From a virus: a stretch of 50,005 nt of DNA. The stretch spans positions 1-50,005 of IMG/VR virus record IMGVR_UViG_3300047560_001339. One strand, written 5' to 3'. Under the pieces are notes generated by a model. That model had not been told where the DNA came from and searched no databases. It worked only from the letters and a program-made list of their open reading frames with translations. Shown here one piece after another: positions 1 through 28,675 of the stretch. Each line of letters opens with the position of its first letter. Within the stretch, counting starts at the first letter, position 1. The position numbers were made by a program, and so were the translations under genes.

Positions 1-176
1 CAATGTTCTCTGTTCTCTCACTTCAACGAGAGTGAATGGGTTGGAAAATTACACTGCGAAAAAGAGCCAAGTAAGACCAAGTTTTACCAAACTTTTACCC
101 CTCCATCCCCTATTTTTACAAGGAGAACATGGAACAAACCAATAAAATCAATAACTTAGCTTAAAAAAAGGAGAAC
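1..176. other. Left-end region without a convincing gene
   Basis: No reading frame here resembles a protein. The stretch holds copies of the string GGAGAACA(T/C)GGA near 122, 170 and 192, and the near-complementary GTTCTCT near 5 and 12. An 11-codon frame at 129-164 follows an AAGGAG-like site but is too short to call. Near-copies of the AACCNAGTT motif that recurs further right are also present (for example GACCAAGTT at 75). Confidence 0.4.
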
Positions 177-323
177 ATGGAGAGAACAAAAAGGAGAACA
201 CGGAAAAACCTAGTTAAAACCACGTTAAAACCGAGTTTAACTTGGCAAAACAAAATTAAAACTGAGCAAGAAGCCTTGATACCTGTTCCCTCCCCCGTTG
301 ATGTCGATCCCCCTAAAAAATAA
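177..323 (+). CDS. Possible small basic protein, 48 aa
   Basis: An ATG at 177 follows AAGGAGAAC, a good ribosome binding site. The frame gives a Lys/Arg/Thr-rich peptide with a Pro-rich C-terminus (PVPSPVDVDPPKK). It opposes the neighbouring minus-strand genes. The part coding for EQEALIPV lies in a direct repeat whose second copy at 1138-1169 encodes KQEALIPV in the same phase; this is the only hint of coding constraint. I do not recognise a family. It could equally be a spurious frame over a repeated non-coding element. Confidence 0.25.
   Translation: MERTKRRTRKNLVKTTLKPSLTWQNKIKTEQEALIPVPSPVDVDPPKK
265..296 (+). repeat. Direct repeat copy 1 (32 nt, 29/32 identical to 1138-1169)
   Basis: Begins AGCAAGAAGCCTTGATACC and ends in a C-run. 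It differs from the second copy at three positions. Each copy lies just beyond a minus-strand intrinsic terminator, which suggests a repeated control or gene-cassette boundary element. Confidence 0.6.
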
Positions 324-349
324 AACTTGAGTAAAATAGTCAACTATAG

Positions 350-377
350 AAAAACAAAAAGCCCTCCTAAGAGGGCT
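350..377 (-). terminator. Intrinsic terminator of the GP88-family gene
   Basis: On the minus strand AGCCCTC and GAGGGCT form a 7-bp stem around a 4-nt loop, followed by a T-rich tract (plus-strand A-run at 350-359). It lies about 20 nt past the GP88 stop codon, as expected for a Rho-independent terminator. Confidence 0.85.
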
Positions 378-396
378 CGGTAAAACTAGGTTAAAC

Positions 397-1053
397 CTAG
401 TGAGCAAGGTATGAAACATTAGTAACCTTGTTATCCCAGCAAGCACGGCATGAACCACATTGACCTTGTTGGCTAGGTGCTAGGCACTTAAAACCGTCTA
501 ACTCGGTTGTACTATGTACGGTTGAGGTTAAAACATTAGCATAACCCTTGAGTGACCTCGGTAACTTAGCTGGTTGATCTTTATACATGGCTGACATACG
601 TATAACTAGGTTCACTGGGATTGACTCGGTTTTCAAAAAGTCCTTAACAATGTCATACTCGCGGGTCGGTAACCAAAATAATGTTTGATCTAGGCGCCTT
701 GCGATCGTTGCTATTTTTTGTAGATGTTCTACGCTTTGTAGATCCCCCGAATCATGCCAGCGAAAATAGGGTTTATTACCTATTAGCTTAACCATAGCAT
801 CGACCCATAACGGATGATTAATAGATTCAAGCCTTTTATATTGTAACGGCTCTATTGTTTTAGCAAAGCGATGATAATTACCTTTTAATGCGTAGCAATC
901 TTCGCATACTGAGCCCTTAATGTTAGCTAGCTTCGATCCGGTTATGCATGCCTTGGCTGGTAATGAATAAGATTCACTAGGCATTTTAGATGTTTTAGTA
1001 CACGATCCAGCTATGTTAATAGCATCGCGTTTTAAGAATTTAATCACTTGCAT
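397..1053 (-). CDS. GP88-family phage protein
   Basis: A 218-residue protein that I match by eye to the phage GP88 (gene product 88) family, whose biochemical role I do not know. It has an N-terminal block with SYSLPAKACITG and cysteines at 18, 36, 50 and 53 (CEDCYALKGNY), a central W-H-D segment (FRWHDSGDLQ) and a C-terminal cluster C190, C199, C202, C205. The cysteines suggest a metal or iron-sulfur site, which is inference. The start at 1053 follows GAAAGGG on the minus strand. It is a single-gene unit with its own promoter (1085-1113) and terminator (350-377). Several copies of an AACCNAGTT motif lie inside or beside it. Confidence 0.7.
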   Translation of the reverse strand: MQVIKFLKRDAINIAGSCTKTSKMPSESYSLPAKACITGSKLANIKGSVCEDCYALKGNYHRFAKTIEPLQYKRLESINHPLWVDAMVKLIGNKPYFRWHDSGDLQSVEHLQKIATIARRLDQTLFWLPTREYDIVKDFLKTESIPVNLVIRMSAMYKDQPAKLPRSLKGYANVLTSTVHSTTELDGFKCLAPSQQGQCGSCRACWDNKVTNVSYLAH

Positions 1054-1084
1054 GTTATCCCTTTCCGATAATGAATGTCCTATT

Positions 1085-1113
1085 AAAATACGCTAAATTA
1101 GTTTATTTGTCAA
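1085..1113 (-). promoter_or_regulatory. Sigma70-like promoter for the GP88 gene
   Basis: On the minus strand a perfect TTGACA (1113-1108) is followed after exactly 17 nt by TATTTT (1090-1085). The start codon is at 1053. It lies in the short gap between the terminator of the preceding unit and the GP88 gene. Confidence 0.7.
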
Positions 1114-1137
1114 GTTACAAAAAGCAAATACAAAATA

Positions 1138-1169
1138 AGCAAGAGGCCTTGATACCTGTTCTCTACCCC
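1138..1169 (+). repeat. Direct repeat copy 2 (pair of 265-296)
   Basis: Begins AGCAAGAGGCCTTGATACC. It lies directly after the poly-T tract (minus sense) of the terminator at 1170-1195. A plus-strand frame across it encodes KQEALIPV, close to EQEALIPV from copy 1, but it then runs into the minus-strand genes and has no convincing ribosome binding site. Confidence 0.6.
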
Positions 1170-1195
1170 AAAAAGAAAAGGCGTCAAAAGACGCC
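1170..1195 (-). terminator. Intrinsic terminator overlapping a stop codon
   Basis: Minus-strand GGCGTC, TTTT loop, GACGCC, then TTTTCTTTTT. The TGA stop of the 65-residue gene at 1184 lies inside the hairpin, so its last codons are also the terminator stem. It ends the 2673-to-1184 minus-strand unit. Confidence 0.85.
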
Positions 1196-1381
1196 CTCCG
1201 CTTCTAACCTTTTGTTACTAAGTCGAACCACTTCTTTTAGTTCATTTGAGTTTAATATAAGAAAGCCTCCAGGCGCGTGGTGTATATTGAATTGATCCAC
1301 GGCATAGTACTCGGCATTGCCTGGTGATAACTGGACTCCTAAATCCCATACCATGTTACTTGTTAGCGCATAGTAATTCAT
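1184..1381 (-). CDS. Small phage protein of unknown function, 65 aa
   Basis: Not recognised. I chose the ATG at 1381 (MNYYALTSN) over an upstream in-frame ATG at 1402 because GGGAGGATTTTAAT precedes it. It contains a GNAEYYAVDQF segment, PGGFLILNSNELKEVV and a charged C-terminus. It follows the 75-residue gene by 1 nt in the same operon, and its 3' end is part of a terminator hairpin. Likely an accessory early protein. Confidence 0.55.
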   Translation of the reverse strand: MNYYALTSNMVWDLGVQLSPGNAEYYAVDQFNIHHAPGGFLILNSNELKEVVRLSNKRLEAEGVF

Positions 1382-1382
1382 A

Positions 1383-1610
1383 TTAAAATCCTCCCTGTTC
1401 AAAATGTTTTGCTAACGTGTCACCGGATATATTCCTAATCCAGCCGTGTCCGAACCAGGTGCCGTCATAGTTCTTTTGAAGTGATACCATGTTCTCGCCC
1501 CAGCTTACCTCGAACTCGGTGTAACCTTGTTTTAAACCGCGCTTGATGCTTTGCATAACTTGGTTGTTACTTGGTTTACGGCCATCAAAATATTCCTCAT
1601 AGATACTCAT
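1383..1610 (-). CDS. Small phage protein of unknown function, 75 aa
   Basis: Not recognised. The start at 1610 (MSIYEEYFDG) is preceded by GGAGCTAACC; a longer frame to 1694 has no such site and overlaps the upstream gene heavily. The protein is aromatic-rich and polar (VSWGENMVSLQ, DGTWFGHGWIRNISG). It overlaps the upstream gene by 14 nt, which suggests translational coupling in the small early operon. Confidence 0.55.
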   Translation of the reverse strand: MSIYEEYFDGRKPSNNQVMQSIKRGLKQGYTEFEVSWGENMVSLQKNYDGTWFGHGWIRNISGDTLAKHFEQGGF

Positions 1611-1830
1611 GGTTAGCTCCTTTATAAAATGATTCAAATACTTCTTGAAGTGCATAATAGATTTCGCATTGTAAATCCTCCTGGAGCGATTCATCTGCTA
1701 CGTTATGAACAATTTCTCCAGCCCAGTCCCATAAACCACCGGCATATTTCTCATCGAGATCACCGCCTCGGCATTCCTCTTTTATAGCTAGTTTATGTAG
1801 GTCGATTCTATTCTTAATATATGTATTCAT
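1597..1830 (-). CDS. Small phage protein of unknown function, 77 aa
   Basis: Not recognised. It is an acidic, Trp-containing, mainly helical protein (GGLWDWAGEIVHNVADESLQ) that starts at 1830 after CTGGAGTTTATT. It lies 18 nt downstream of the ArdC-like gene in the same transcription unit. Its job is probably tied to the early takeover phase, by location only. Confidence 0.55.
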   Translation of the reverse strand: MNTYIKNRIDLHKLAIKEECRGGDLDEKYAGGLWDWAGEIVHNVADESLQEDLQCEIYYALQEVFESFYKGANHEYL

Positions 1831-1848
1831 AATAAACTCCAGGGAGGC

Positions 1849-2673
1849 CTAAGCCTCCTCTGCCTCCTCGTTGGTTGTAAATGCTAGGATCTTTTGAGCT
1901 AGCGCACTTGCCTTAAGAATATTCTTAGGATCGCTTTTTAATACTTGAAGCCATGACTCGATATAACTAGCATGCTGTAATTGACCGTCGATCTTATTGT
2001 GAGCGCATAGCATAGCGCTACCTAACTCCGCTACTAACTCCTCGAACGCATAAGCCTCTGATCCGAACTTATTCTTAAAGTCGCGGTTAAGTCGTGACTC
2101 GTGGCCTGTCCAGTGTGATAACTCATGTAATGCTGTCGCATAATAATCACCAGTTGACTTGAATTGGTTACGCTCCGGGAGTTGAATATAATCGAACGTT
2201 GGAGTATAGAATGCGCGATCGCCTCCGAACTGGATACGTGCACGTTGTCTTTTAATGAATGCCTCGCATGATTCAATGGCCTCGATCTCGGTGCGCTCGG
2301 TTGATGCTGGTAACTCCAGGCCGTCGATCTGATCCGCATTAAATACAGTGTAATGCTTAAGCATTGGAATCTTTTTAGCGTCGCCTGTTACCTTATCAGT
2401 AACCTCGAGCGGACTGAAATAGATAACTGGAACTCCAACGGAACCCTTGCGCACTTGAGCGCCGATGCTTTGAGCTTGTTTATATGTTAACCAATTGTGA
2501 GTTGATCCAGGCATCATCGAGAGCTGTACGAAATTAATACCATTATAGTAACGCTTGGTTACTGGATTATATGGTGCATCGATGCCGTGTGAATGCCAGG
2601 GCTTAACCCAGGGAGCCACTCCAGCTTCTAACTGTTTAATAATGTTATCGGTTATTGTTTGAGCTATATTCAT
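1849..2673 (-). CDS. ArdC-like antirestriction / ssDNA-binding metallopeptidase
   Basis: A 274-residue protein with the two-part design of ArdC: an N-terminal ssDNA-binding domain (residues 1-125; ITDNIIKQLEAGVAPWVKPW, then RYYNGINF) and a C-terminal zincin-like peptidase domain. The zinc site HELSH is at 183-187 with H191 nearby, followed by the helix with ELVAELGSA. ArdC proteins are carried by plasmids and phages and protect incoming DNA, which fits an early gene. It has its own strong promoter (2720-2748) and leads a four-gene minus-strand operon ending at 1184. Family assignment is firm; protection against a particular restriction system is inference. Confidence 0.85.
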   Translation of the reverse strand: MNIAQTITDNIIKQLEAGVAPWVKPWHSHGIDAPYNPVTKRYYNGINFVQLSMMPGSTHNWLTYKQAQSIGAQVRKGSVGVPVIYFSPLEVTDKVTGDAKKIPMLKHYTVFNADQIDGLELPASTERTEIEAIESCEAFIKRQRARIQFGGDRAFYTPTFDYIQLPERNQFKSTGDYYATALHELSHWTGHESRLNRDFKNKFGSEAYAFEELVAELGSAMLCAHNKIDGQLQHASYIESWLQVLKSDPKNILKASALAQKILAFTTNEEAEEA

Positions 2674-2719
2674 ATTTGATACTCCTGTTTAGAATAGTTA
2701 ATTAAATACTGCAGGATCA

Positions 2720-2748
2720 AGGATACATATTAAATTAATATATGTCAA
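2720..2748 (-). promoter_or_regulatory. Sigma70-like promoter with palindromic spacer (ArdC operon)
   Basis: Minus-strand TTGACA (2748-2743), 17 nt, TATCCT (2725-2720). The spacer contains a near-perfect AT palindrome (ATATTAA-A-TTAATAT), which could be an operator or simply AT-rich promoter DNA. The ArdC start codon is about 47 nt downstream. Confidence 0.65.
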
Positions 2749-2988
2749 GTATTATTTTACTAATTAATATAAATTATTTTACCGGCGCACCAGGATCGAG
2801 AGGCCTCCAGGGCTGGACCCCACCTATACCCCGGGACCCCAAAAATGTAGAAAGAATTATTTTTTATCATATACACTTAGATTTGCGCGAATAACTACAA
2901 TAAAACTCAAAATATAGAAACACCCCCCGTGCTTAAAAAATAGGCACATAGAAAAAAATTTCTACAAAAAAATTATCAAATATTAGGG
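2749..2988. other. Divergent intergenic region with a GC-rich patch
   Basis: No gene seen. About 2780-2843 is sharply GC-rich (GGCCTCCAGGG, GGACCCC, ACCCCGGGACCCC) inside otherwise very AT-rich DNA. It is followed by A/T runs and a C-run at 2922-2928, and by a small TAGAAA...TTTCTA inverted repeat near 2950-2965. It separates the minus-strand early operon from the plus-strand oxygenase gene and could hold a replication or control element; the sequence alone does not decide. Confidence 0.4.
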
Positions 2989-2994
2989 TATAAT
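2989..2994 (+). promoter_or_regulatory. TATAAT -10 box directly before the oxygenase start
   Basis: A perfect TATAAT ends 6 nt before the ATG at 3001, so transcription would start at or next to the start codon. No Shine-Dalgarno is present, which fits a leaderless mRNA. No good -35 box is visible. Confidence 0.45.
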
Positions 2995-3000
2995 AGAACG

Positions 3001-3525
3001 ATGCAGATTATAGATAACTTCTTACCTCAAGACTTCGCTAACCAAGTATTACAAGAGTTAAACTCAGCTAATTTCCCGTGGTACTTAAATCAATACACAT
3101 CATACGAAGGGGACAACGAACCTCAGCTCGTACATAATTTTTACAACGACCAACCTTTATCAGCGTGGTATTTAAATATACATCCTATGCTTGAAGTGTT
3201 TGAAAATAAAACTGAGTACAAAATAAATAGCATAGGTAGAATAAAAGCTAATCTATTAACAAATAGAGTTATACCAAAAGAGTACGTAGAAAAAACAATT
3301 CACCAAGACACAACTAAAGATAACTATGTCTCTCTTTTATATTACGTAGATGATGCAGATGGGGATACTATATTGTACAAAGAAGATAAGAAAACAGAAT
3401 TGATGAGAGTGACTCCAAAAAGAAATCGTGCAGTTATATTCAAATCAAATATATGGCATACAGGGTTATTACCTATAAAAACAAATAAGAGAAGAGTAAT
3501 TAATTTTATATTAGAGATTAAATAG
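3001..3525 (+). CDS. 2OG-Fe(II) oxygenase (prolyl 4-hydroxylase-like)
   Basis: A 174-residue protein with the double-stranded beta-helix iron site of 2-oxoglutarate dioxygenases: H101-x-D103 (IHQDTTKDNY), distal H153 (IWHTG) and a 2OG-binding Arg at 164/165 (KRRVINF). N-terminal MQIIDNFLPQDFANQVL is typical of the P4H-like phage subgroup. Such enzymes hydroxylate protein or nucleic-acid substrates; the substrate here is unknown. No ribosome binding site precedes the ATG, but a TATAAT box lies at 2989. It converges on and overlaps the SprT-like gene by 8 nt. Confidence 0.8.
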   Translation: MQIIDNFLPQDFANQVLQELNSANFPWYLNQYTSYEGDNEPQLVHNFYNDQPLSAWYLNIHPMLEVFENKTEYKINSIGRIKANLLTNRVIPKEYVEKTIHQDTTKDNYVSLLYYVDDADGDTILYKEDKKTELMRVTPKRNRAVIFKSNIWHTGLLPIKTNKRRVINFILEIK

Positions 3526-3865
3526 CTTTAGGATCGAGGCTATAAACTTCGGAATACACAGCTTTAATTTTGAGGAAGGATTCCTCATGGAGGTGAAACT
3601 TAGGATCTTTCTTTATATAGAGAGCGAGGTGAACCATTTCATGAAGGAGTGTTGCAAAGATAGTAGTGAAGTGACCACATGAACCAGAACTAATTTCAAT
3701 CTGCATTTCAACTTCGTCAAAACATCCGTAAATACCAGGGTCACTAATGACTTTAAATTTAACTTTGCTAGACTTAGGCATTTTTAGTTTGTTAAATGGT
3801 GGCAGTTTGCATGCCATGTCATAGAGGTGAGCTAAGTTGGCCGAGGTTAACGTGGTTAACTTCAT
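3518..3865 (-). CDS. SprT-like zinc metallopeptidase
   Basis: A small SprT/Spartan-type peptidase core with LLHEMVH (zinc-binding HExxH) and a downstream HLHEESFLK segment that probably supplies the third ligand. SprT-like proteins act on DNA-associated proteins; phage targets are unknown. The start is unclear. ATG at 3865 (MKLTTLTSAN) gives 115 residues. A TTG at 3910 extends it by 15 residues, and the frame stays open about 15 codons further up without an ATG. Neither start has a strong ribosome binding site. Confidence 0.7.
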   Translation of the reverse strand: MKLTTLTSANLAHLYDMACKLPPFNKLKMPKSSKVKFKVISDPGIYGCFDEVEMQIEISSGSCGHFTTIFATLLHEMVHLALYIKKDPKFHLHEESFLKIKAVYSEVYSLDPKAI

Positions 3866-3941
3866 ACAGGCATAGATAGCATAAGATAGACTAGGTAAAT
3901 CACGATGCAATACACAACCGCTATTAAGATATCCGTAGAAT

Positions 3942-4010
3942 TCAAAATGTAACTACCAAGTAAACAAGGTTAATACCAACATCAACAACAGAAACTATAT
4001 CAATCTCCAT
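3942..4010 (-). CDS. Possible 22-residue hydrophobic mini-protein
   Basis: Minus-strand ATG at 4010 follows AGGAGGTTTT, one of the best ribosome binding sites in the window. The 22-codon frame (begins MEIDIVSVVDVG) is Val/Ile-rich and could span or lie on a membrane. It sits upstream of the SprT-like gene in another frame, so it may be a leader peptide. It has no recognised relatives, and only the ribosome binding site supports it. Confidence 0.3.
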   Translation of the reverse strand: MEIDIVSVVDVGINLVYLVVTF

Positions 4011-4115
4011 AAAACCTCCTATTCTGAAACTATATTTTACCTTGTTTTCCTAAAATTCTGTGTTAAAATCCCACAAATCAGCTGCATAATATATAAAAGG
4101 TGTAAACAGCGACAC

Positions 4116-4754
4116 ATGCAAGACCAGAATATCCAAGAAAATCAACAAGATAACGCGAATAACCCCGTAGTTATCGTGCCTTCTATCGAAGAAGGTATAC
4201 CTATTCCAAAAAGTTCCACAGAAGCCCTACCAAGTATGACCGTAGAAGACGAAGTTACGCTTCGTGCTACCACAATTAAAGAAATAAGTGACATAACGGG
4301 TGAAGAAATCAAGCCAGATGCAGAAAATATCAAAGAAGCAGAAGACTTAGCTCGAAAAATGGTTCAAAACCCAGGTATGAAACAAGAATTTGGGTTATAC
4401 GCAAATGAAACCATGGCTTACTTAGGTGGCTTAGTAGGTTGCTACAATCATATGATAGTGAAAGACTTAGCAGATTTAAAGTTATACGTAGTAAATAGAC
4501 TCGTTGACATTGTTGAAAAATCAGAAAACCCAAAAGAACAAATTACAGCGTTAAGATCCATTGGTGAAGTAGATGGTGTAGATGCATTTAAGAAGAAAAC
4601 AGAAGTTGTGCATAAAATGGAGACGATGGAAGAAGTTGAAAAAGAATTATTATCGATGTTGTCCGAGCTAAAACAAAAAGCACTTATTAAACCCGCACCA
4701 CAAACAGTAGACGCAGAAATTATAGAAGACGAAGATGACAGTCGTAGCGAGTAA
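4116..4754 (+). CDS. Putative small terminase subunit
   Basis: A 212-residue acidic protein directly upstream of, and overlapping by 20 nt, the large terminase gene. That is the usual place for the small terminase, which recognises phage DNA for packaging. Residues 1-45 are Gln/Asn/Pro-rich and probably flexible. The middle is helical, and residues ~145-190 look coiled-coil (METMEEVEKELLSMLSELKQ) with an acidic tail. I see no clear HTH signature, so the role rests mainly on position. AAAAGG lies 15-20 nt upstream of the start. It opens the long plus-strand structural operon. Confidence 0.5.
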   Translation: MQDQNIQENQQDNANNPVVIVPSIEEGIPIPKSSTEALPSMTVEDEVTLRATTIKEISDITGEEIKPDAENIKEAEDLARKMVQNPGMKQEFGLYANETMAYLGGLVGCYNHMIVKDLADLKLYVVNRLVDIVEKSENPKEQITALRSIGEVDGVDAFKKKTEVVHKMETMEEVEKELLSMLSELKQKALIKPAPQTVDAEIIEDEDDSRSE

Positions 4755-6291
4755 CGAAGTAAAACCAAAAATCACCGAGGAAGATATTGCACTACTAGAA
4801 GCAAGCTTCGCTGATTTAACAGATGAACAAAAGGTTAAAGCCAATCGCCTGCTCAAAGTATATAAAAAACAAATCGTACAGAAGTCAGGTAAAGAAACAT
4901 TTTTAGATTTTATACAACACGTATACCCAGGTTATATTATAGGAGAACATCATCGAAAACTGGCTCAAATATTTGAAGACATCGCTAATGGTAAAAAGAA
5001 GAGAGTTATCGTTAATATTGCGCCTCGTCATGGCAAGTCCGAGCTCATATCCTACTTGGCTCCTGCATGGTTCCTTGGTAAATATCCTCACAAGAAGGTT
5101 ATCATGGCATCCCACACGGCTGATTTGGCGGTTAATTTTGGACGTCGCGTACGTAATCTTGTGGGTAGTGACGCGTATAAAGATATATTTCCGCAAGTAG
5201 AATTACAAGCTGACTCGAAGAGCGCTTCACGATGGGGAACAAACTTTAATGGAGAGTATTTTGCTATTGGTGTTGGTGGTGCCCTCGCTGGTCGCGGGGC
5301 TGATCTTTTTATCATTGATGATCCACACTCAGAGCAAGATGCAAAACTTGGAAGGGCTGATGTCTTTAAGCCTGCTTGGGAGTGGTTTCAGTCTGGTCCT
5401 CTACAACGTCTTATGCCTGGTGGTTCGATCATCGTAGTGATGACTAGGTGGAGTAAATTAGATTTAACTGGTGAAATTATTAACCAGATGGTGAAGAACG
5501 ATGAAGTAGATCAGTGGGAAGTGGTTGAGTTTCCAGCTATTATTGAGAATAAACAAGGTGAGATGGAGTCACTCTGGCCTGAGTTCTGGCCTTTAAAAGA
5601 GTTACTAGCTAAGAAAGCAGCGTTAGATATTCGGTATTGGAACTCGCAATACATGCAAAACCCTGTATCAGAAGAGGGTGCACTGATTAAAAGAGAGTGG
5701 TGGAAGATATGGGAAGAAGAAGATCCACCTCATTGTGAATTCACAATCATGAGTCTAGACGCGGCTCAAGAGTCTAATAACAGGGCTGACTTCAATGCTT
5801 TAACGACTTGGGGTGTCTTTTTTAACGAAGAAACCAATAATTATAATATAATACTATTAAACAGCATCAAAAAGCGTATGGAGTTTCCTGAGCTTAAAGA
5901 AATGTGTATTGAAGAATACAAAGAGTGGGAGCCTGATGCGTTTATTGTAGAAAAGAAATCTAACGGCGCTGCACTCTACCAAGAGTTCAGAAGGATGGGT
6001 ATTCCTGTCGGTGAATATACGCCGGGTAAAGGCCAAGATAAAATCAGTCGTGTTAATAGTGTATCAGATTTATTTAGATCAGGCATTGTCTGGGCACCTG
6101 ATAGACGTTGGGCAAAAGAAGTAATAGAGGAATGTAATGATTTTCCTAGTGGAGCAAATGACGACTTAGTCGACGCAACAACACTAGCATTAATGAGGTT
6201 TAGACAAGGTGGCTTTATTAGATTACCTAGTGATGAACCTGAAGAAATATATGGGTTCAAGTCAAATAAAAATAGATTGTATTTAGTATAA
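4735..6291 (+). CDS. terL: Terminase large subunit
   Basis: The 518-residue packaging motor. Its N-terminal ATPase has Walker A APRHGKS (96-102), Walker B LFIIDDPH (191-198) and a coupling segment VVMTRW. The C-terminal RNase H-like nuclease has acidic residues in MSLDAAQ (~340), FIVEKKSNG and DDLVDATT. It pumps DNA through the portal and cuts concatemers. It overlaps the upstream gene, with GAAGACGAAG-type purines before the ATG, and precedes the portal gene by 10 nt. Length and motif order fit full-length TerL proteins. Confidence 0.95.
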   Translation: MTVVASNEVKPKITEEDIALLEASFADLTDEQKVKANRLLKVYKKQIVQKSGKETFLDFIQHVYPGYIIGEHHRKLAQIFEDIANGKKKRVIVNIAPRHGKSELISYLAPAWFLGKYPHKKVIMASHTADLAVNFGRRVRNLVGSDAYKDIFPQVELQADSKSASRWGTNFNGEYFAIGVGGALAGRGADLFIIDDPHSEQDAKLGRADVFKPAWEWFQSGPLQRLMPGGSIIVVMTRWSKLDLTGEIINQMVKNDEVDQWEVVEFPAIIENKQGEMESLWPEFWPLKELLAKKAALDIRYWNSQYMQNPVSEEGALIKREWWKIWEEEDPPHCEFTIMSLDAAQESNNRADFNALTTWGVFFNEETNNYNIILLNSIKKRMEFPELKEMCIEEYKEWEPDAFIVEKKSNGAALYQEFRRMGIPVGEYTPGKGQDKISRVNSVSDLFRSGIVWAPDRRWAKEVIEECNDFPSGANDDLVDATTLALMRFRQGGFIRLPSDEPEEIYGFKSNKNRLYLV

Positions 6292-11578: not shown

Positions 11579-12493
11579 ATGGCAATTTCACGCGCACAGC
11601 TCCTTAAAGAGCTATTACCAGGACTAAATGCATTATTTGGTCTAGAATACAAACGTTACGGTGAAGAACATAAAGAGATTTATGAAACAGAATCATCAGA
11701 ACGTTCATTCGAAGAAGAAACAAAACTTTCAGGTTTCTCAGCAGCACCAGTCAAAAACGAAGGCACTGCAATCGCTTATGACAATGCTCAAGAAGCTTGG
11801 ACAGCTCGATACAATCATCAAACTATCGCTCTTGGCTTCAGCTTAACTGAAGAAGCTGTAGAAGATAACTTGTATGACACATTATCAGCACGTTACACAA
11901 AAGCTTTAGCTCGCGCTATGGCTTACACAAAACAAGTTAAAGCAGCTGCAGTATTAAACAATGGCTTCAACACTTCTGGTTCTTACAACGGTGGTGATGG
12001 CGTTTCATTATTTAACACAGCTCACCCACTTGTTAATGGCGGCTCAAACAGCAACACTCAATCAACTCCAACAGACTTAAATGAAACTGCTCTTGAAAAT
12101 GCAGTTATTCAAATTGCTGCTTGGACTGATGAGCGTGGTCTCTTGATCGCTGCTCAACCACGTAAATTAGTTGTTCCACCAGCATTGCAATTCGTTGCAA
12201 CTCGCTTGCTAGAAACTGAATTACGTGTATCAACAGCTGACAATGACATCAACGCGATTAAGAACAACGGTTCTATCCCAGAAGGTTACACAATTAACCA
12301 CTTCTTAACAGATAGCAACGCTTACTTCTTAACAACTGATGTTCCTAACGGCATGAAACACTTTGAACGTATTCCATTATCAACATCTATGGACGGTGAC
12401 TTTGATACAGGTAACGTACGTTACAAAGCTCGTGAACGTTACAGCTTTGGTTGGTCAGATCCTCTCGGTATGTGGGGTTCACCAGGTGCTTAA
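11579..12493 (+). CDS. Major capsid protein (Mu gpT-like, HK97 fold)
   Basis: 304 residues resembling the Mu gpT-type major head subunit: helical N-terminus (LLKELLPGLNALFGLEYKRY), a FEEETKLSGF segment typical of the extended loop, GFSLTEEAVEDNLYDTLSAR, a FNTAHPL motif, and a WSDPLGMWGSPGA end. It forms the icosahedral shell. AAGGAGAAAATAAC is a strong ribosome binding site. A clear terminator follows 24 nt after the stop, which would set a high separate mRNA level for this gene. Confidence 0.85.
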   Translation: MAISRAQLLKELLPGLNALFGLEYKRYGEEHKEIYETESSERSFEEETKLSGFSAAPVKNEGTAIAYDNAQEAWTARYNHQTIALGFSLTEEAVEDNLYDTLSARYTKALARAMAYTKQVKAAAVLNNGFNTSGSYNGGDGVSLFNTAHPLVNGGSNSNTQSTPTDLNETALENAVIQIAAWTDERGLLIAAQPRKLVVPPALQFVATRLLETELRVSTADNDINAIKNNGSIPEGYTINHFLTDSNAYFLTTDVPNGMKHFERIPLSTSMDGDFDTGNVRYKARERYSFGWSDPLGMWGSPGA

Positions 12494-12516: not shown

Positions 12517-12550
12517 AAAAGGGCTTACTTAAAACGTAGGCCCTTTTTCT
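12517..12550 (+). terminator. Intrinsic terminator after the capsid gene
   Basis: AAAAGGGC pairs with GCCCTTTT, extended inward by TTAC/GTAG-type pairs to about 12 bp, followed by a T-rich tract. It separates the capsid transcript from pqqA. Confidence 0.85.
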
Positions 12551-12602: not shown

Positions 12603-12631
12603 TTGACAACTGTACACATGGTGTGTACGAA
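12603..12631 (+). promoter_or_regulatory. pqqA promoter with palindromic operator-like site
   Basis: A perfect TTGACA at 12603-12608 is followed after 17 nt by a weak -10 (TACGAA, 12626-12631). Between them lies GTACACA-TGG-TGTGTAC (12612-12628), a perfect 7-3-7 palindrome overlapping the spacer. A repressor bound there would block RNA polymerase. It could also form a small 5' hairpin in mRNA started upstream. The core ACACA-N3-TGTGT recurs at 48175-48187. Confidence 0.6.
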
Positions 12632-12650
12632 AATTTTAAGGAGAATTACT

Positions 12651-12728
12651 ATGTCAAAATGGACAAAACCAGCAGCAACTGAAATGAGATTTGGCTTTGA
12701 AGTGACTATGTACGTGATGAATAAGTAA
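12651..12728 (+). CDS. pqqA: PqqA: pyrroloquinoline quinone precursor peptide
   Basis: A 25-residue peptide starting MSKWTKPAATEMRFGFE and continuing VTMY (to 21). It matches the PqqA family over its length: W-x-K-P near the start, R-x-G-x-E-V-T-x-Y core, and a short Asn/Lys end. Glu17 and Tyr21 form the E-x3-Y pair that the radical SAM enzyme PqqE, with chaperone PqqD, joins by a C-C bond; all PQQ atoms come from these two residues. TTAAGGAG lies 8 nt before the ATG. No pqqB-E is in the window, so the peptide would feed host enzymes and raise or sustain PQQ for methanol or glucose dehydrogenases. It is boxed between two terminators with its own promoter, a moron-like insertion between structural genes. 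Confidence 0.92.
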   Translation: MSKWTKPAATEMRFGFEVTMYVMNK

Positions 12729-12747
12729 TAAAAAACGTACGACTGAG

Positions 12748-12776
12748 ACCCCTAGAAATAGGGGTTTTCTTTTTAT
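12748..12776 (+). terminator. Intrinsic terminator after pqqA
   Basis: ACCCCTA, GAAA tetraloop, TAGGGGT, then TTTCTTTTT. The stable stem lies about 20 nt after the pqqA stop and closes its single-gene unit. Confidence 0.9.
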
Positions 12777-12827: not shown

Positions 12828-12900
12828 CCGGGTTACCCGGCTTATCAGACTGTCCCGGCAGACGCATACAAGACGGATAAGCTTAACTTTGTATGAAGGA
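12828..12900 (+). ncRNA. Structured 5' leader with predicted pseudoknot
   Basis: Three pairings can be drawn. CCGGG/CCCGG (12828-12832/12836-12840) is a small hairpin. GCTTATC (12840-12846) pairs with GATAAGC (12876-12882). CATACAA (12865-12871), inside that loop, pairs with TTGTATG (12889-12895) beyond it, an H-type pseudoknot or two exclusive stems. The ribosome binding site AAGGA (12896-12900) directly abuts the last stem, so folding could control translation of the gene at 12909. Its place downstream of a gpT-like capsid gene recalls the Mu-gpT-DE RNA motif; this needs a covariance search. Confidence 0.6.
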
Positions 12901-12908
12901 AAAATATC

Positions 12909-13490
12909 ATGGCATTAACAACGTTTAGCGGCCCAGTGTCGTCTCAAAATGGCTTTATTGGCGGTACAGCTACAAGCCCAATCACAGTAACAACAGCACA
13001 AAATATCAATGCATCTTACGGTACAACATCTGCTACAACAGGTGATACTCGTTTAATGTATGACAAATTAACATTTACAGCAGCAGGTTCTGGCGAAACA
13101 TTAAGAGCTTTCTCAGTAGTTACTACAACTACAGCAGCTGTAGGTGGCACAATCAATGGTGCTCATATTTCTTTAGAAGTAGATGGTTCAGGTAAGATTT
13201 CTGGTGCAGGTAATGCAATCAGAGCTACTTTAGGTGGTACACAAACAGCTCAAACAGGTACACTATCAGTTATTCAAGCTGATACAAACTTTGGTGCAGG
13301 TGTTACAGTTCCAGCTACAGCATCATTTATTAGAGTAACAGATTCTGGTGCTACTACAGGTGCTATTACTAACCTCTTTAACTTACCTTCAGCATTAGTT
13401 CCAGCTAAGACAGCAGCGGCAGTGACTCATACAATCAAGATTATGGTTGGTAGCACTCCTTACTACTTAATGGTTTCTAACGCACAATAA
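12909..13490 (+). CDS. Structural beta-rich protein, probably head-associated
   Basis: 193 residues, Thr/Gly/Ala-rich with predicted beta strands (TYGTTSATTGDTRLMYDKLTF-type start). It is not a named family to me. It is the first gene after the leader RNA and probably a virion protein made in quantity. Its stop overlaps the next ATG (TAATG). Confidence 0.5.
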   Translation: MALTTFSGPVSSQNGFIGGTATSPITVTTAQNINASYGTTSATTGDTRLMYDKLTFTAAGSGETLRAFSVVTTTTAAVGGTINGAHISLEVDGSGKISGAGNAIRATLGGTQTAQTGTLSVIQADTNFGAGVTVPATASFIRVTDSGATTGAITNLFNLPSALVPAKTAAAVTHTIKIMVGSTPYYLMVSNAQ

Positions 13491-22725: not shown

Positions 22726-23856
22726 ATGGCATCAACGATAAATGCAATCACAACAGGAGCTGGTGGTATAGTCACAACGGGTGACTCATCAGGACAAATA
22801 GGACTTCAATCAAATGGATCTACAGTAGCTACTTTAACTTCTACTGGACTTACAATTACTGGTGCATTATCAGCTTCTGGTCAATTAAATCTTCCTACAT
22901 GGACTACAGGTACACGTCCTTCAACACCTCCAACAGGTACAACTGGATACAATACAACAACTAATCAAATTGAAGTTTACAATGCTACATATTCATCATG
23001 GGCTAATGCTGGTACTTCAGGTGCATCTGGTACAGCAACTTATTTAGTCGTTGCTGGAGGCGCTGGTGGAGGATCAACACAAGGCGGAGGTGGCGGCGCT
23101 GGTGGTTATATTACTGGATCATTTACTATAAATTTAGGATCAGGAACTGTTTATACAGCTGTCGTTGGAGCTGGTGGTTCTGGAGCAACAAGTAGAAATG
23201 CTGCATCTTCTTCTGGATCAAACTCAACATTTACAGGCGCTACTACCGCAGTAGGTGGAGGTGCTGGAACATCATTTGGTGCTGCTGGAGCTACTGGAGG
23301 TTCTGGAGGTGGAGCAAGTGGTGGATTCGGTACATACTCAGGATATGCAGGAACTCCTGGACAAGGTAATAGTGGTGGATTTAGTACTAACTATAGTACA
23401 TATGGTTTAGGTGCTGGAGGCGGTGGAGCATCAAGTAACGGAACTAATGCTGCTCCTGGAGGTTTAGTAGCACCAGCTGGTGCGGGTGGAACAGGAACTT
23501 CTAACTCTATTACTGGCACACCTGTTGGTTATGCTGGAGGTGGTGGCGGAGGTGGAGACATAAGAGCGCCATTAAGTACAGCTGGAGGAACAGCGTCTAG
23601 CGGAGGTGGTGCAGGGGGATCTGGACCATCAAATGCAGGAACTGCAGGAACTGCAAACACTGGTGGCGGCGGTGGTGGCGGTGCATTTAGTAACCCAGGA
23701 GATGGACCAGGAGGTAATGGCGGTTCAGGTGTAGTTATTCTTTCAGTACCTACTGCAGTATACTCAGGTACTACAACAGGTAGCCCAACAATTACTACAT
23801 CAGGTTCTAATACAATTATCAAGTGGACCTCTGGTTCAGGTACATACACAGCTTAA
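22726..23856 (+). CDS. Glycine-rich adhesin 1
   Basis: 376 residues. The head has the motif RPSTPPTGTTGYNTTTNQIE (type A, shared with the proteins at 26657 and 27680), then a YLVVAGGAGGG entry into a long glycine-rich domain (poly-Gly tracts as in polyglycine-II phage adhesins). The conserved tail is SGVVILSVPTAVYSGTTTG. Such domains form tips that bind host receptors. First of five paralogues. TTAGGAGAACACA precedes the ATG. Confidence 0.75.
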   Translation: MASTINAITTGAGGIVTTGDSSGQIGLQSNGSTVATLTSTGLTITGALSASGQLNLPTWTTGTRPSTPPTGTTGYNTTTNQIEVYNATYSSWANAGTSGASGTATYLVVAGGAGGGSTQGGGGGAGGYITGSFTINLGSGTVYTAVVGAGGSGATSRNAASSSGSNSTFTGATTAVGGGAGTSFGAAGATGGSGGGASGGFGTYSGYAGTPGQGNSGGFSTNYSTYGLGAGGGGASSNGTNAAPGGLVAPAGAGGTGTSNSITGTPVGYAGGGGGGGDIRAPLSTAGGTASSGGGAGGSGPSNAGTAGTANTGGGGGGGAFSNPGDGPGGNGGSGVVILSVPTAVYSGTTTGSPTITTSGSNTIIKWTSGSGTYTA

Positions 23857-23865
23857 GGATAAACT

Positions 23866-25101
23866 ATGTCAAGCATTTTACTTAACGGAGATACATCAGG
23901 TACCTTAACACTGACAGTGCCAGCAATAGCGGGCTCTAATACCATCACACTGCCAGCAGCTACAGGTACGATTATCACAACAGCGTCAACATCAAACATA
24001 CCTAATACTGTCAACTGGACCACAGTGCAAACATCAAGTGTGAACCCAGCAGTAGCAGGTACAGGCTACCCAATGAATACGACGTCTGGTACATTATCTG
24101 TAACACTTCCAGCATCTCCTACAGCAGGGCAAATTATTTCTATTCTTGACTATGCAGGAACGGCAGCTACAAATAATATTACAGTTAATCCAAATGGTAA
24201 TAAATTACAAGGTTCTACAGGTACAGGCATAATTAGTACAAACCGTACTTGCGTAAATTTAGTTTATGTAGACTCAACTCAAGGTTGGTTATATTATTCC
24301 GATGTTTACTCTTCAGGAAACCCTTCTCCTGTTCAATACACAATTACATATTTATCCGTAGCAGGCGGCGGTGGCGGTGGTCAAGGAGGTAACTTTTGGG
24401 TTGGTGGTGCTGGTGGCGCTGGTGGATTAGTATCTGGTTCATTTTCTGCAACAGCAGGAACAACTTATTCAGTCACTGTAGGTGGCGGAGGTGCTGCAGC
24501 TAGTGCAGGTGGTTCTTCAACTTTAACTGGAGTTACAACTGCAGTAGGTGGAGGTGCTGGTGGTGCTAATAGTGGTGGTGCTTCTGGAGGATCAGGCGGT
24601 GGTGGATCTGGTCAAAACGGTGGTACTGCTGGTGGATCTGGTACTCCAGGTCAAGGTTTTGCAGGTGGTACAGGTTATCCAGGTTCTCCTTCTTTTGCTA
24701 GTGGTGGCGGAGGCGGTGCAGGTGGAGTTGGATCTAATGGTCCTTCATCTGGTGGTGCTTCTGGTGGAGTTGGATCAGCTTCTTCAATTACAGGTACACC
24801 TGCTTTCTATGCAGGCGGAGGTGGCGGAGCATCTAACGTAAACCCACAAGGTACTGGTGGTAGTGGAGGTGGTGGTACAGGTTCACAAGGTGGTACAGGT
24901 TCTGCAGGAACTGCTAATACTGGTGGTGGCGGTGGTGGTTCTGGAGGAGGTACAGGTTCTACTGGCGGTTCAGGCGTAGTTATTTTATCCGTACCTACTG
25001 CAAACTATACTGGTACTACAACAGGCTCTCCTACAATTACAACATCAGGTAGCAATACAATTATTAAATTTACTTCTGGTTCAGGAAGCTACACAGCATA
25101 A
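23866..25101 (+). CDS. Glycine-rich adhesin 2
   Basis: 411 residues. It has a type-B head (LLNGDTSGTLTLTVPAIAGS, NTITLPAATGTI), a second N-terminal domain with DYAGTAATNNITVNPNG, then YLSVAGGGGGGQGG and a long glycine-rich domain. The conserved SGVVILSVPTANYTGTTTG tail ends it. Its stop overlaps the next start. The different head suggests attachment to another fibre part than adhesin 1. Confidence 0.75.
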   Translation: MSSILLNGDTSGTLTLTVPAIAGSNTITLPAATGTIITTASTSNIPNTVNWTTVQTSSVNPAVAGTGYPMNTTSGTLSVTLPASPTAGQIISILDYAGTAATNNITVNPNGNKLQGSTGTGIISTNRTCVNLVYVDSTQGWLYYSDVYSSGNPSPVQYTITYLSVAGGGGGGQGGNFWVGGAGGAGGLVSGSFSATAGTTYSVTVGGGGAAASAGGSSTLTGVTTAVGGGAGGANSGGASGGSGGGGSGQNGGTAGGSGTPGQGFAGGTGYPGSPSFASGGGGGAGGVGSNGPSSGGASGGVGSASSITGTPAFYAGGGGGASNVNPQGTGGSGGGGTGSQGGTGSAGTANTGGGGGGSGGGTGSTGGSGVVILSVPTANYTGTTTGSPTITTSGSNTIIKFTSGSGSYTA

Positions 25102-26360
25102 TGGCAAAGTTTGGTATAGCAGGAGATACGTCTGGTGTTATAACAGTGCAAGGTCCAGCAATTGCAGGATCAAACACATTAACATGGCCAGCAGAAACAG
25201 GTACTGCGGTTTTAAGTAATTCATCAACCATGCCAAATACAATTGCATGGAATACAACACCGCAAACAACTGGATTTACAGCTACTGCTAACGCAGGATA
25301 TTTTTGTAATACAACAAGTGCAGCGTTTACAGTAACACTACCAGCAACTCCAACTCGTGGTCAGTTTGTAGTCATTGTTGATTATGCAGGAACTGCAGCT
25401 ACTAATAATATAACTGTGGCAGGTAACGGTGCAAATATTAATGGCACCTCTGGTAATGCAACTTTAAAAACAAACCGTCAAGGTATTACACTAACTTATA
25501 TTGATTCAACACAAGGTTGGTTAGCTTCAAGTAACGTTTATGGTGGATCAACGCCTTTTACACAGCCCTATTCAATTTCTTATTTAGTTGAAGCTGGTGG
25601 TGCTGGCGGAGGCTCATGTACAACTACTGGATTTCCATATGCTGGTGGAGGCGGTGGAGCTGGTGGATTACTAACAGGAACTGCATCATTTACGCCAACG
25701 CAAGTTTATACAATTACTGTGGGTGGTGGTGGTGCGGTAAATACAAATGGTACAAACTCTGTATTATCAGGATCAGGCGTTACAACCCAAACTGCCGTAG
25801 GTGGGGGTTATGGAGGTAATAATGGACCTGGTTTTAATGGTGCTTCAGGCGGTTGTGGCGGTGGCGGTGGAGCTGCTCAACCTGGTACTTTTGCTACTGG
25901 TGGTGCTGGTACGCCTGGTCAAGGATATGGTGGGGGTAATGGTGGCGGTGTTTCATCTAACTCATCAGCAGGTGGCGGAGGTGGTACAGCGGCAGCGGCA
26001 TTAAATGCTTCAGATAATAATCCAACAGCAGGTGGTGCAGGTGCTGCTTCATCTATTACAGGAACTCCAGCTAATTATGGTGGTGGTGGCGGAGGTGGAT
26101 CTGAAACTGCTACTGCAGGTGCTGGTGGTGCTGGTGGTGGCGGTGCTGGTGCTGGTGGTAATGCAACTGCTAATACTGGTGGCGGTGGCGGTGGAGGCCG
26201 TAGAAATAGTGGTACTGGAGGTACAGGTGGTTCTGGTGTAGTTGTTCTTTCTATTCCAACTGCTAAATACACAGGTACAACCACTGGTTCACCTACTGTA
26301 ACTACCTCTGGGTCAAATACTATATTAAAATATACAGCTTCAGGAACTTACACAGCATAG
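25101..26360 (+). CDS. Glycine-rich adhesin 3
   Basis: 419 residues, a close paralogue of the preceding protein: type-B head (GIAGDTSGVITVQGPAIAGS), DYAGTAATNNITVAGNG, a glycine-rich domain with YGGGNGGGVSSNSSAGGGGG, and a slightly divergent tail (SGVVVLSIPTAKYTGTTTG). Coupled to the gene before by TAATG. Confidence 0.75.
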   Translation: MAKFGIAGDTSGVITVQGPAIAGSNTLTWPAETGTAVLSNSSTMPNTIAWNTTPQTTGFTATANAGYFCNTTSAAFTVTLPATPTRGQFVVIVDYAGTAATNNITVAGNGANINGTSGNATLKTNRQGITLTYIDSTQGWLASSNVYGGSTPFTQPYSISYLVEAGGAGGGSCTTTGFPYAGGGGGAGGLLTGTASFTPTQVYTITVGGGGAVNTNGTNSVLSGSGVTTQTAVGGGYGGNNGPGFNGASGGCGGGGGAAQPGTFATGGAGTPGQGYGGGNGGGVSSNSSAGGGGGTAAAALNASDNNPTAGGAGAASSITGTPANYGGGGGGGSETATAGAGGAGGGGAGAGGNATANTGGGGGGGRRNSGTGGTGGSGVVVLSIPTAKYTGTTTGSPTVTTSGSNTILKYTASGTYTA

Positions 26361-26369
26361 GGTATAATT

Positions 26370-26660
26370 ATGGCAAAGATGACTATAGAAGAATTAATTA
26401 AAGAATTTAGTAACGAACAAGGTTTTCAATTTGGTATTGACATTGTGATGAAGTCATTACGACCAGGTGCACTTTACGGCTTATCAGCCTCTGGAGGTAC
26501 TTTTGAAATCGTATCGTGGGATGAGTCAAACGAATTACCACCACCATCATCACAAGAAATACGAGATGAATATATTCGTCACCAAACGATTCGTGAATTT
26601 ATAGATATGTTAGAAGCAAATAAAAAGAATAAAAAAACTAGGGTCAGGAAAGCCGCATGA
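26370..26660 (+). CDS. Small fibre-cassette protein (possible assembly factor)
   Basis: 96 residues, charged, not glycine-rich, set between adhesins 3 and 4. Core: IDIVMKSLRPGALYGLSASG, FEIVSWDESNELPPPSSQEI, then a helix (YIRHQTIREFIDML) and a Lys/Arg tail. Small non-structural genes inside fibre cassettes are often fibre chaperones, but no family match is sure (a remote XkdW-like pattern at best). TATAAT ends 1 nt before the ATG and no Shine-Dalgarno is seen; the next ATG at 26379 is an alternative. Confidence 0.5.
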   Translation: MAKMTIEELIKEFSNEQGFQFGIDIVMKSLRPGALYGLSASGGTFEIVSWDESNELPPPSSQEIRDEYIRHQTIREFIDMLEANKKNKKTRVRKAA

Positions 26661-27661
26661 GCTTAGGTATATCTAGTACTGGTGGAATGACTTTACCTAC
26701 ATGGACATCGGCAACTCGCCCATCTACACCATCTGCAGGCCAAACAGGATTTAATACATCTTTAAATTCTTTAGAAGTATATAATGGGTCATCTTGGATT
26801 ATTACAGCTACAGCCCCTACCTATACAGCTTCTTATTTAGTAGTTGCTGGTGGAGGGGGTGGTGGTAATAATGGAGGTGGCGGTGCTGGTGGTTATTTAA
26901 CTGGAACTATGACTTTAAATGCCGGTATTATTTATACAGCTACAGTTGGAGGTGGAGGAGCTGGATCACCACAACAAGTTAATGGAGCAGGTACAAAAGG
27001 CACTTCAGGAAATGATTCATCTATATCAGGCTCAGGATTGACAACTATTACATCAACTGCTGGAGGTTATGGTGCGGGGGGTGATACAAATAATACAGGA
27101 GGTTCTGGAGGTTCTGGAGGTGGTGGTGCAGGAGCATCAAGTGCAATAGGTTCTGGTACTCCAGGCCAAGGTAATAATGGTGGAAATGGTGGTAGTAATC
27201 AAGTAGGTGGTGGAGGTGGTGGATCTGGCAGTACAGGTGGTAATGGAACTGCTACAAGCACGGGAGTAGGAGGTTCTGGCGGATCTGGTACTGCTTCATC
27301 AATTACAGGATCATCAGTAACATACGCTTCAGGTGGTGGTGGTGCTGGAGGTCAAAATGGAGGCACAGGCGGAACTGCTTCAGCAGGTGGTGGTGCTAAT
27401 GGAGGAAATGGGGGTTCAGCAGGTACAGTAGGAGGTACGGCTACAGCCAATACAGGTGGTGGTGGTGGAGGTGGTGGCACTAATGGAGATACTTCACCTT
27501 ATCCAAGATTAGCTGGTGGAGCTGGAGGTTCGGGTGTAGTTATTTTATCTGTCCCAACTGCAAACTATTCAGGTACAACGACAGGAAGTCCTACGATTAC
27601 AACATCAGGTGCTAATACAATTATTAAATGGACCTCTGGTTCAGGAACTTATACAGCTTAA
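26657..27661 (+). CDS. Glycine-rich adhesin 4
   Basis: 334 residues. Short type-A head (LPTWTSATRPSTPSAGQTGF, NSLEVYNGSSW), YLVVAGGGGGGNNGGGGAG, long glycine-rich domain, conserved tail SGVVILSVPTANYSGTTTG. Overlaps the small gene before it by 4 nt (ATGA). Receptor-binding tip candidate. Confidence 0.75.
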   Translation: MSLGISSTGGMTLPTWTSATRPSTPSAGQTGFNTSLNSLEVYNGSSWIITATAPTYTASYLVVAGGGGGGNNGGGGAGGYLTGTMTLNAGIIYTATVGGGGAGSPQQVNGAGTKGTSGNDSSISGSGLTTITSTAGGYGAGGDTNNTGGSGGSGGGGAGASSAIGSGTPGQGNNGGNGGSNQVGGGGGGSGSTGGNGTATSTGVGGSGGSGTASSITGSSVTYASGGGGAGGQNGGTGGTASAGGGANGGNGGSAGTVGGTATANTGGGGGGGGTNGDTSPYPRLAGGAGGSGVVILSVPTANYSGTTTGSPTITTSGANTIIKWTSGSGTYTA

Positions 27662-27679
27662 AGATTTTAGGAGAAACAA

Positions 27680-28675
27680 ATGGCATTTATATTAGGTGGA
27701 ACAACAGGCGCAGGATTTCCTAGCTGGACAACAGCAGCAAGGCCTACATCACCCGCAACAGGACAAACTGGATATAACACAAGCTATGCTCAGCTAGAAG
27801 TTTATAACGGTACTTCATGGGTCTTAGTTTCTACTGCACCTACATATACTGCTTCATATTTAGTAGTTGCTGGAGGCGGAGGCGGAGGTCAAAATGGACC
27901 AAATACTGGACGGGGTGGCGGAGGAGGTGCTGGTGGATATTTAACTGGTACTACAACTCTAGCTGTCGGTACAGTTTATACAGCGGTAGTAGGTGCTGGC
28001 GGATCTAGTCAGACTTATGGATCTTCTGCGTCTGGAAGTAATTCTACATTTACTGGATTAACAACCGCCATAGGCGGAGGTGGTGGCGGAGCAGGAACAG
28101 ATTCACCAAATAATAGAAATGGTGCAAATGGTGGATCAGGCGGTGGAGCGGCTACTTATAATGGATCAGGCACAGCAGGATCTGGTACACCAGGACAAGG
28201 TAACGCTGGTGGATTAGGTACTGAAACAGCACCAGTTTATGGATCAGGCGGAGGTGGTGGGGCAAGTGCTGTAGGCGGATTAGGAACTTCTTCTGCTGGT
28301 GGTAATGGTGGTGCTGGAACCGCATCTTCTATTACAGGTTCTTCAGTTACATACGCTGGTGGAGGTGGAGGGGCATCATATACAACTACTGGCACAGCAG
28401 GCTCAGGTGGAGCTGGTGGAGGTGGTAGAGGTGCAGGTGATGGAAATGGCGGAGGCGGAGGTGCTGCAATTGCTGGAACTGCAAACACTGGTGGTGGTGG
28501 AGGTGGAGGCGCTAATGGCACAAATTATTCTGGTGCTGGAGGTTCGGGTGTAGTTATTATTTCAGTACCTACAGCAAATTATACAGGTACTACAACTGGC
28601 TCACCGACCGTGACAACATCAGGAAGTAATACTATAATTAAATGGACCAGCGGTTCTGGTACATACACAGCTTAA
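27680..28675 (+). CDS. Glycine-rich adhesin 5
   Basis: 331 residues. Type-A head (FPSWTTAARPTSPATGQTGY, AQLEVYNGTSWVLV), YLVVAGGGGGGQNGPN, glycine-rich domain, conserved tail SGVVIISVPTANYTGTTTG. Closest in plan to adhesin 4. TTAGGAGAAACAA precedes the ATG. Last member of the array. Confidence 0.75.
   Translation: MAFILGGTTGAGFPSWTTAARPTSPATGQTGYNTSYAQLEVYNGTSWVLVSTAPTYTASYLVVAGGGGGGQNGPNTGRGGGGGAGGYLTGTTTLAVGTVYTAVVGAGGSSQTYGSSASGSNSTFTGLTTAIGGGGGGAGTDSPNNRNGANGGSGGGAATYNGSGTAGSGTPGQGNAGGLGTETAPVYGSGGGGGASAVGGLGTSSAGGNGGAGTASSITGSSVTYAGGGGGASYTTTGTAGSGGAGGGGRGAGDGNGGGGGAAIAGTANTGGGGGGGANGTNYSGAGGSGVVIISVPTANYTGTTTGSPTVTTSGSNTIIKWTSGSGTYTA

Follow-up and report, generated by a model that had tools for sequence, protein, structure and literature searches.

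The 50,005-nucleotide stretch of viral DNA analysed here (the window) carries a complete 25-codon pqqA gene encoding PqqA, the precursor peptide of the cofactor PQQ. We consider it most likely, with a probability of roughly 0.8, that this is a functional phage-borne gene whose product feeds PQQ synthesis in the host and so sustains its methanol dehydrogenase during infection. The observations behind this reading concern the identity of the gene, its location in phage genomes, its conservation, the purifying selection on it, its translation signals, the type of host and the pathway genes which that host carries. They support the interpretation offered in the initial annotation of this DNA.

The frame translates as MSKWTKPAATEMRFGFEVTMYVMNK, contains the PqqA motifs W4-T-K-P7 and R13-F-G-F-E17-V-T-M-Y21, and scores well above the cut-offs of both PqqA profiles (Table 1). 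The Pfam profile, run against all six frames of the 50-kb record, matched this frame alone (E = 2e-11) and found nothing in 14 control genomes, so the match is not a chance one; a comparison of the peptide with PDB chains gave no match. The frame is thus confirmed as a full PqqA. Its position, its 25 codons and its motifs are exactly those given in the initial annotation, and the PqqA-profile check proposed there and the strong ribosome binding site claimed there likewise came out in its favor.

PqqA is typically encoded by a short free-standing ORF of about 23–29 amino acids, and the 25-residue frame, with its Shine-Dalgarno motif and predicted terminator, appears to be just that. Because AAGGAG precedes the start codon, a predicted terminator of the capsid gene lies before it and another follows the stop codon, pqqA seems to be transcribed as a small unit of its own, placed between the major capsid gene and the ORF at 12909. 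A sigma-70 promoter scan upstream of the window pqqA found none. The perfect inverted repeat in the leader is predicted to form a hairpin with z = −0.45, which alone is not significant.

Table 1 Features in and around pqqA of the window
Feature	Position	Strand	Description	Basis
Major capsid protein gene (Mu gpT-like/Phage_capsid_4)	11579..12493	+	Upstream neighbor of pqqA; lineage marker	
Predicted intrinsic terminator of capsid gene	12517..12547	+	12-bp stem; separates pqqA as its own unit	z −2.9
Inverted repeat GTACACA-TGG-TGTGTAC in pqqA leader	12612..12628	+	Perfect 7 bp; putative operator or 5′ hairpin	Sequence
Shine-Dalgarno AAGGAG	12638..12643	+	7 nt upstream of pqqA ATG	Read directly
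pqqA	12651..12728	+	25 codons + stop (ATG 12651, TAA 12726–12728); cross-link residues Glu17/Tyr21	Pfam PqqA PF08042, 42.7 bits (cut-off 21.1, hmmscan); NCBIfam equivalog TIGR02107, 40 bits (cut-off 20)
Predicted intrinsic terminator of pqqA	12745..12768	+	10-bp stem, T-rich tail	z −3.1
Downstream neighbor of pqqA	12909..13490	+	193 aa	No PHROGs match

The record is an IMG/VR virus, and genes for terminase, portal, major head protein, endolysin and virion proteins lie around pqqA, in line with the earlier description of the peptide as phage-coded. That this is a genuine phage genome is indicated by the phage genes flanking pqqA, by its equal slot in related contigs and by the presence of pqqA in cultured phages. 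By tblastn the window encodes no pqqB, C, D or E, as had been remarked for these four genes, and no XoxF-type dehydrogenase (the best hit, E = 0.036, falls in a glycine-rich frame). It has no tRNA gene, so tRNA-based host assignment yielded nothing.

The host is suggested by the peptide. A DNA core-pattern scan of one genome per species shows MWT[TK]PAATEMRFGFEVTMYVMNK to be a PqqA of Methylophilaceae, and the window peptide is of this type, which bears out the link to that family first proposed. The host PqqA (PF08042/TIGR02107) has an identical core and a nearly identical peptide; the window product begins with MSKW where host PqqA begins with MW, and so is two residues longer, and the window copy differs from the host gene in being phage-borne, alone and equipped with a putative terminator of its own. 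All 120 Methylophilaceae genomes sampled contain pqqA (median 4 copies, range 1–12), in agreement with the 3–12 copies per genome, alongside other pqq genes that are typically single-copy, in PMC4109929; PqqE scores above the cut-off in 57 of 60 genomes of the family. From the peptide and the relatives of the phage we infer that the window phage infects Methylophilaceae. On a Methylophilaceae genome contig (L391, positions 1–5426), the 3′ end of a window-type capsid gene and pqqA are followed by host glmS, glmU, atpC and atpD, the host gene names being read from translations, and two relatives of this contig carry the glmS side with no pqqA nearby. Three events could each account for this junction: integration near glmS, recombination, or misassembly through the shared pqqA. 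It therefore lends no more than support to the host assignment.

Phage pqqA is widespread in cultured methylophages. A tblastn search of 50,697 phage records found it in P19250A (L004:2501–2575), Venkman, MEP301, MEP401, MEP402, four Melnitz genomes and one unassigned spring phage, and hence in each of the six cultured methylophage species identified in GenBank. Two further PqqA queries, more divergent in sequence, recovered the identical twelve records. The methylophage GenBank records carry no annotation of the gene, or call an opposite-strand frame in its place. The only other matches are two "Acinetobacter phage" records, both of which match bacterial PqqA. One of these, "Acinetobacter phage MD-2021a" (L009, CAKLQF020000010.1, 144 kb), was rejected as a case of phage pqqA; it has chromosomal pqqBCDE beside ppk and fur, and the phage label looks wrong for a contig with these bacterial genes.

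Searches of IMG/VR with degenerate DNA patterns for the core and for the N-terminus gave at least 160 distinct loci, which are not a random sample. Among the matches listed, none of 160 viral pqqA loci has pqqB–E nearby in its IMG/VR DNA (68/119 for bacterial loci), and 152 of the 160 have proteins in common with one of seven reference phages. The position of the gene varies: it follows the capsid gene in the window phage, neighbors recombination or single-strand-binding genes in Venkman, MEP301 and the spring phage, heads the run of structural genes in MEP401 and MEP402, and sits between tRNA and baseplate genes in Melnitz. The association with a gpT-like capsid gene, suggested earlier as something to look for in other phages, thus holds for the clade of the window phage but not elsewhere. 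Judged by these sequences pqqA is carried by several unrelated phage lineages, and the differing insertion sites point to its repeated acquisition or its movement between phages. Some T4-like contigs encode divergent PqqA of other types, and a 72-kb IMG/VR contig (L374, 3300025120_009955) carries, in addition to pqqA, a complete 624-aa XoxF-like methanol dehydrogenase at 1084–2958.

Comparison of relatives shows that phage pqqA is an accessory, dispensable cassette. Eighty capsid relatives of the window were picked regardless of pqqA; six have the gene, in every case just downstream of the capsid gene and on the same strand; 16 of the 20 larger capsid-relative records are without it anywhere. 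Most carriers on the capsid tree belong to a single group of 15 members, which was partly found through pqqA and so is not an unbiased count, and there are three scattered rows besides. The tree shows four changes in pqqA carriage, and a single clade of carriers is not rejected (p-AU 0.29), so that pqqA may have had one origin within this capsid family or more than one. In the Venkman, P19250A and MEP401 lineages nine of 19 long relatives carry pqqA, and the idea that it is universal in these phages was accordingly dropped; the gene was not found in the other ten, seven of which were rechecked by a permissive search, and some of these records may be incomplete. Among those without the gene is a 37.5-kb phage whose terminase is 97% identical to that of P19250A; both flanks are conserved in it, and the pqqA slot contains other sequence. 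A gene that encodes a host-type peptide and is missing from such close relatives is dispensable for virion building, as befits an auxiliary gene.

Conservation was judged by copies found with the N-terminal pattern and by capsid and terminase relatives picked regardless of pqqA; the core-pattern set was put aside for this purpose because the pattern fixes the core by construction. All 119 N-terminal-pattern copies among the matches listed are 23 amino acids long with an intact core. Over codons 11–23, which lie outside the N-terminal pattern, 108 distinct genes among the matches listed give pS 0.70 and pN 0.05; the resulting pN/pS of 0.07 is approximate, as pairs are non-independent and divergence at synonymous sites is close to saturated. 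In the 108 genes the residues Arg, Gly, Phe14, Glu, Thr, Tyr and Asn (counting from MW) stay constant while their codons vary. Thus, the PqqA peptide is under strong purifying selection, and the prediction that its Glu and Tyr would be kept in related phages is borne out without exception in this set. Such a ratio, together with constant residues under changing codons, is hard to reconcile with a neutral passenger or a role at the RNA level.

Shine-Dalgarno-like motifs precede pqqA in all 147 distinct viral leaders tested among the matches listed. Folding is somewhat better in these leaders than in the leaders of other phage genes (mean z −1.12 vs −0.31); over the set, hairpins show a modest enrichment, and one often stands directly before the Shine-Dalgarno motif. 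A stronger claim of a conserved leader hairpin was dropped in view of these mean values and the −0.45 of the window leader.

It could be argued that pqqA is a passive passenger, picked up by chance from the host or kept as shared DNA for recombination with it, with no function in infection. Host pqqA copies are indeed many and near-identical, and L391 joins a window-type capsid–pqqA segment to host glmS–glmU–atpCD. We nevertheless regard this as highly improbable, given strong purifying selection in the face of synonymous divergence, a lack of broken copies, a Shine-Dalgarno motif in every leader, a terminator of its own and recurrence in unrelated phages.

The preferred reading, a functional gene that feeds host PQQ, implies the following course of events. 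The phage would produce the PqqA precursor peptide, host PqqD and PqqE would bind it and join Glu17 to Tyr21 by a cross-link, and the host's other enzymes would complete PQQ, which would load host methanol dehydrogenase, mainly XoxF; energy and C1 carbon flow would thereby be maintained during viral replication. Expression of pqqA in infection, processing of its product by host enzymes and a resulting benefit are thus to be expected. The mechanism is the subject of 2016 work cited in PMC7678222 and PMC9851590, a phage-encoded methanol dehydrogenase has been described (PMC7678222), and among the transcripts of marine OM43 xoxF ranks first (PMC5120137).

Supplying the substrate would be the cheapest part of the pathway for a phage to raise, since hosts have a median of four pqqA genes and normally one set of the others, and one PqqA is consumed per PQQ, unlike the pathway enzymes. 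Since every cultured methylophage found has pqqA, viruses carrying it probably feed the methanol-burning machinery of their hosts while they replicate. On balance we also lean towards a broader view, in which supply of the precursor alone is a general and repeatedly acquired strategy of viruses of methanol oxidizers, and infected cells are limited by PqqA rather than by the enzymes. Each of the unrelated phages (T4-like, podovirus-like, siphovirus and Zobellviridae) would then have a cassette of 75 bases that escapes gene callers and doubles as a marker of the host for uncultured phages.

Two other uses of the peptide deserve consideration, and the invariance of its reactive residues makes both less likely. 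As a decoy, it might occupy PqqD/PqqE and throttle host PQQ, or be only partly processed, and so divert the host's metabolism from oxidizing methanol; an abundant small peptide could compete with the PqqA of the host, and phage pqqA does come without pqqB–E. Reactive residues would not have to be preserved in a decoy, yet Glu and Tyr never vary in the 108 distinct genes among the matches listed; moreover, the phage sequence equals the host substrate and some phages, both here and in PMC7678222, carry methanol dehydrogenase as well. We therefore consider a decoy quite unlikely. PQQ or PqqA might instead serve a purpose other than methanol oxidation, such as redox protection or control of host genes by the peptide; this is compatible with selection on the peptide, which is silent about its end use. 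It is very unlikely, however, as the association is with methanol-oxidizing hosts, and no genuine phage record from other PQQ producers turned up with three PqqA queries.

Phage pqqA has been clearly reported once before, in the Lake Baikal methylophage contig VP_266, where PqqA was proposed in 2020 to support methanol oxidation (PMC7678222); in addition it is one entry among the virus-encoded genes listed for reservoir sediments (PMC13188868). VP_266 resembles the present case in having a phage-borne pqqA proposed to aid methanol oxidation by Methylophilaceae. It is a T4-like phage with a methanol dehydrogenase, whereas the window and most of the phages found have pqqA without a dehydrogenase or other pqq genes. 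The same paper describes P19250A as lacking the genes it reports, but P19250A does contain pqqA, and papers on cultured methylophages do not report the gene. As far as the open-licence papers searched show, the presence of pqqA in all six cultured methylophages found, its stand-alone spread over unrelated lineages and the evidence from selection and from presence and absence appear to be new.

Cyanophage psbA and similar auxiliary metabolic genes are host-derived, are under strong selection and top up a component that turns over. Phage pqqA is like them in these respects; its product, however, is a consumed substrate peptide and theirs an enzyme or protein subunit. Pelagiphages of the HTVC023P/HTVC027P type and Roseobacter phages CRP-901/902 have capsids homologous to that of the window phage, but their recorded hosts are non-methylotrophs and tblastn found no PqqA match in them.

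Pelagic Methylophilaceae (OM43, Methylopumilus) oxidize methanol, which is an important C1 flux, and the cultured phages of this family were previously described without any methylotrophy gene. The overlooked pqqA in all six is a concrete handle on phage manipulation of C1 metabolism and an example of metabolic genes shorter than the gene-calling length being missed. The 75-base gene also offers a marker for tying uncultured phages to methanol-oxidizing hosts.

Other features of the window were noted as well. Positions 12828–12895, before the ORF at 12909, form a conserved RNA leader with a pseudoknot-like fold, present in 24 distinct copies (e.g., L014, L052, L273, L278 and L314) and occurring both with and without pqqA; a comparison with Rfam gave no credible match. 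Its P1 helix (C[CT]GGG/CCC[AG]G) is paired in 24/24 copies, P2 has many compensated variants, and P3 (CATACAA/TTGTATG, ATGCAA/TTGCAT, ACATAC/GTATGT and others) lies beside the ribosome site. Five long repetitive glycine-rich frames (376, 411, 419, 334 and 331 aa) with similar C-termini stand in a row at 22726–28675, and a protein of the 2OG-Fe(II) oxygenase superfamily is encoded at 3001–3525 (34.8 bits, cut-off 27).
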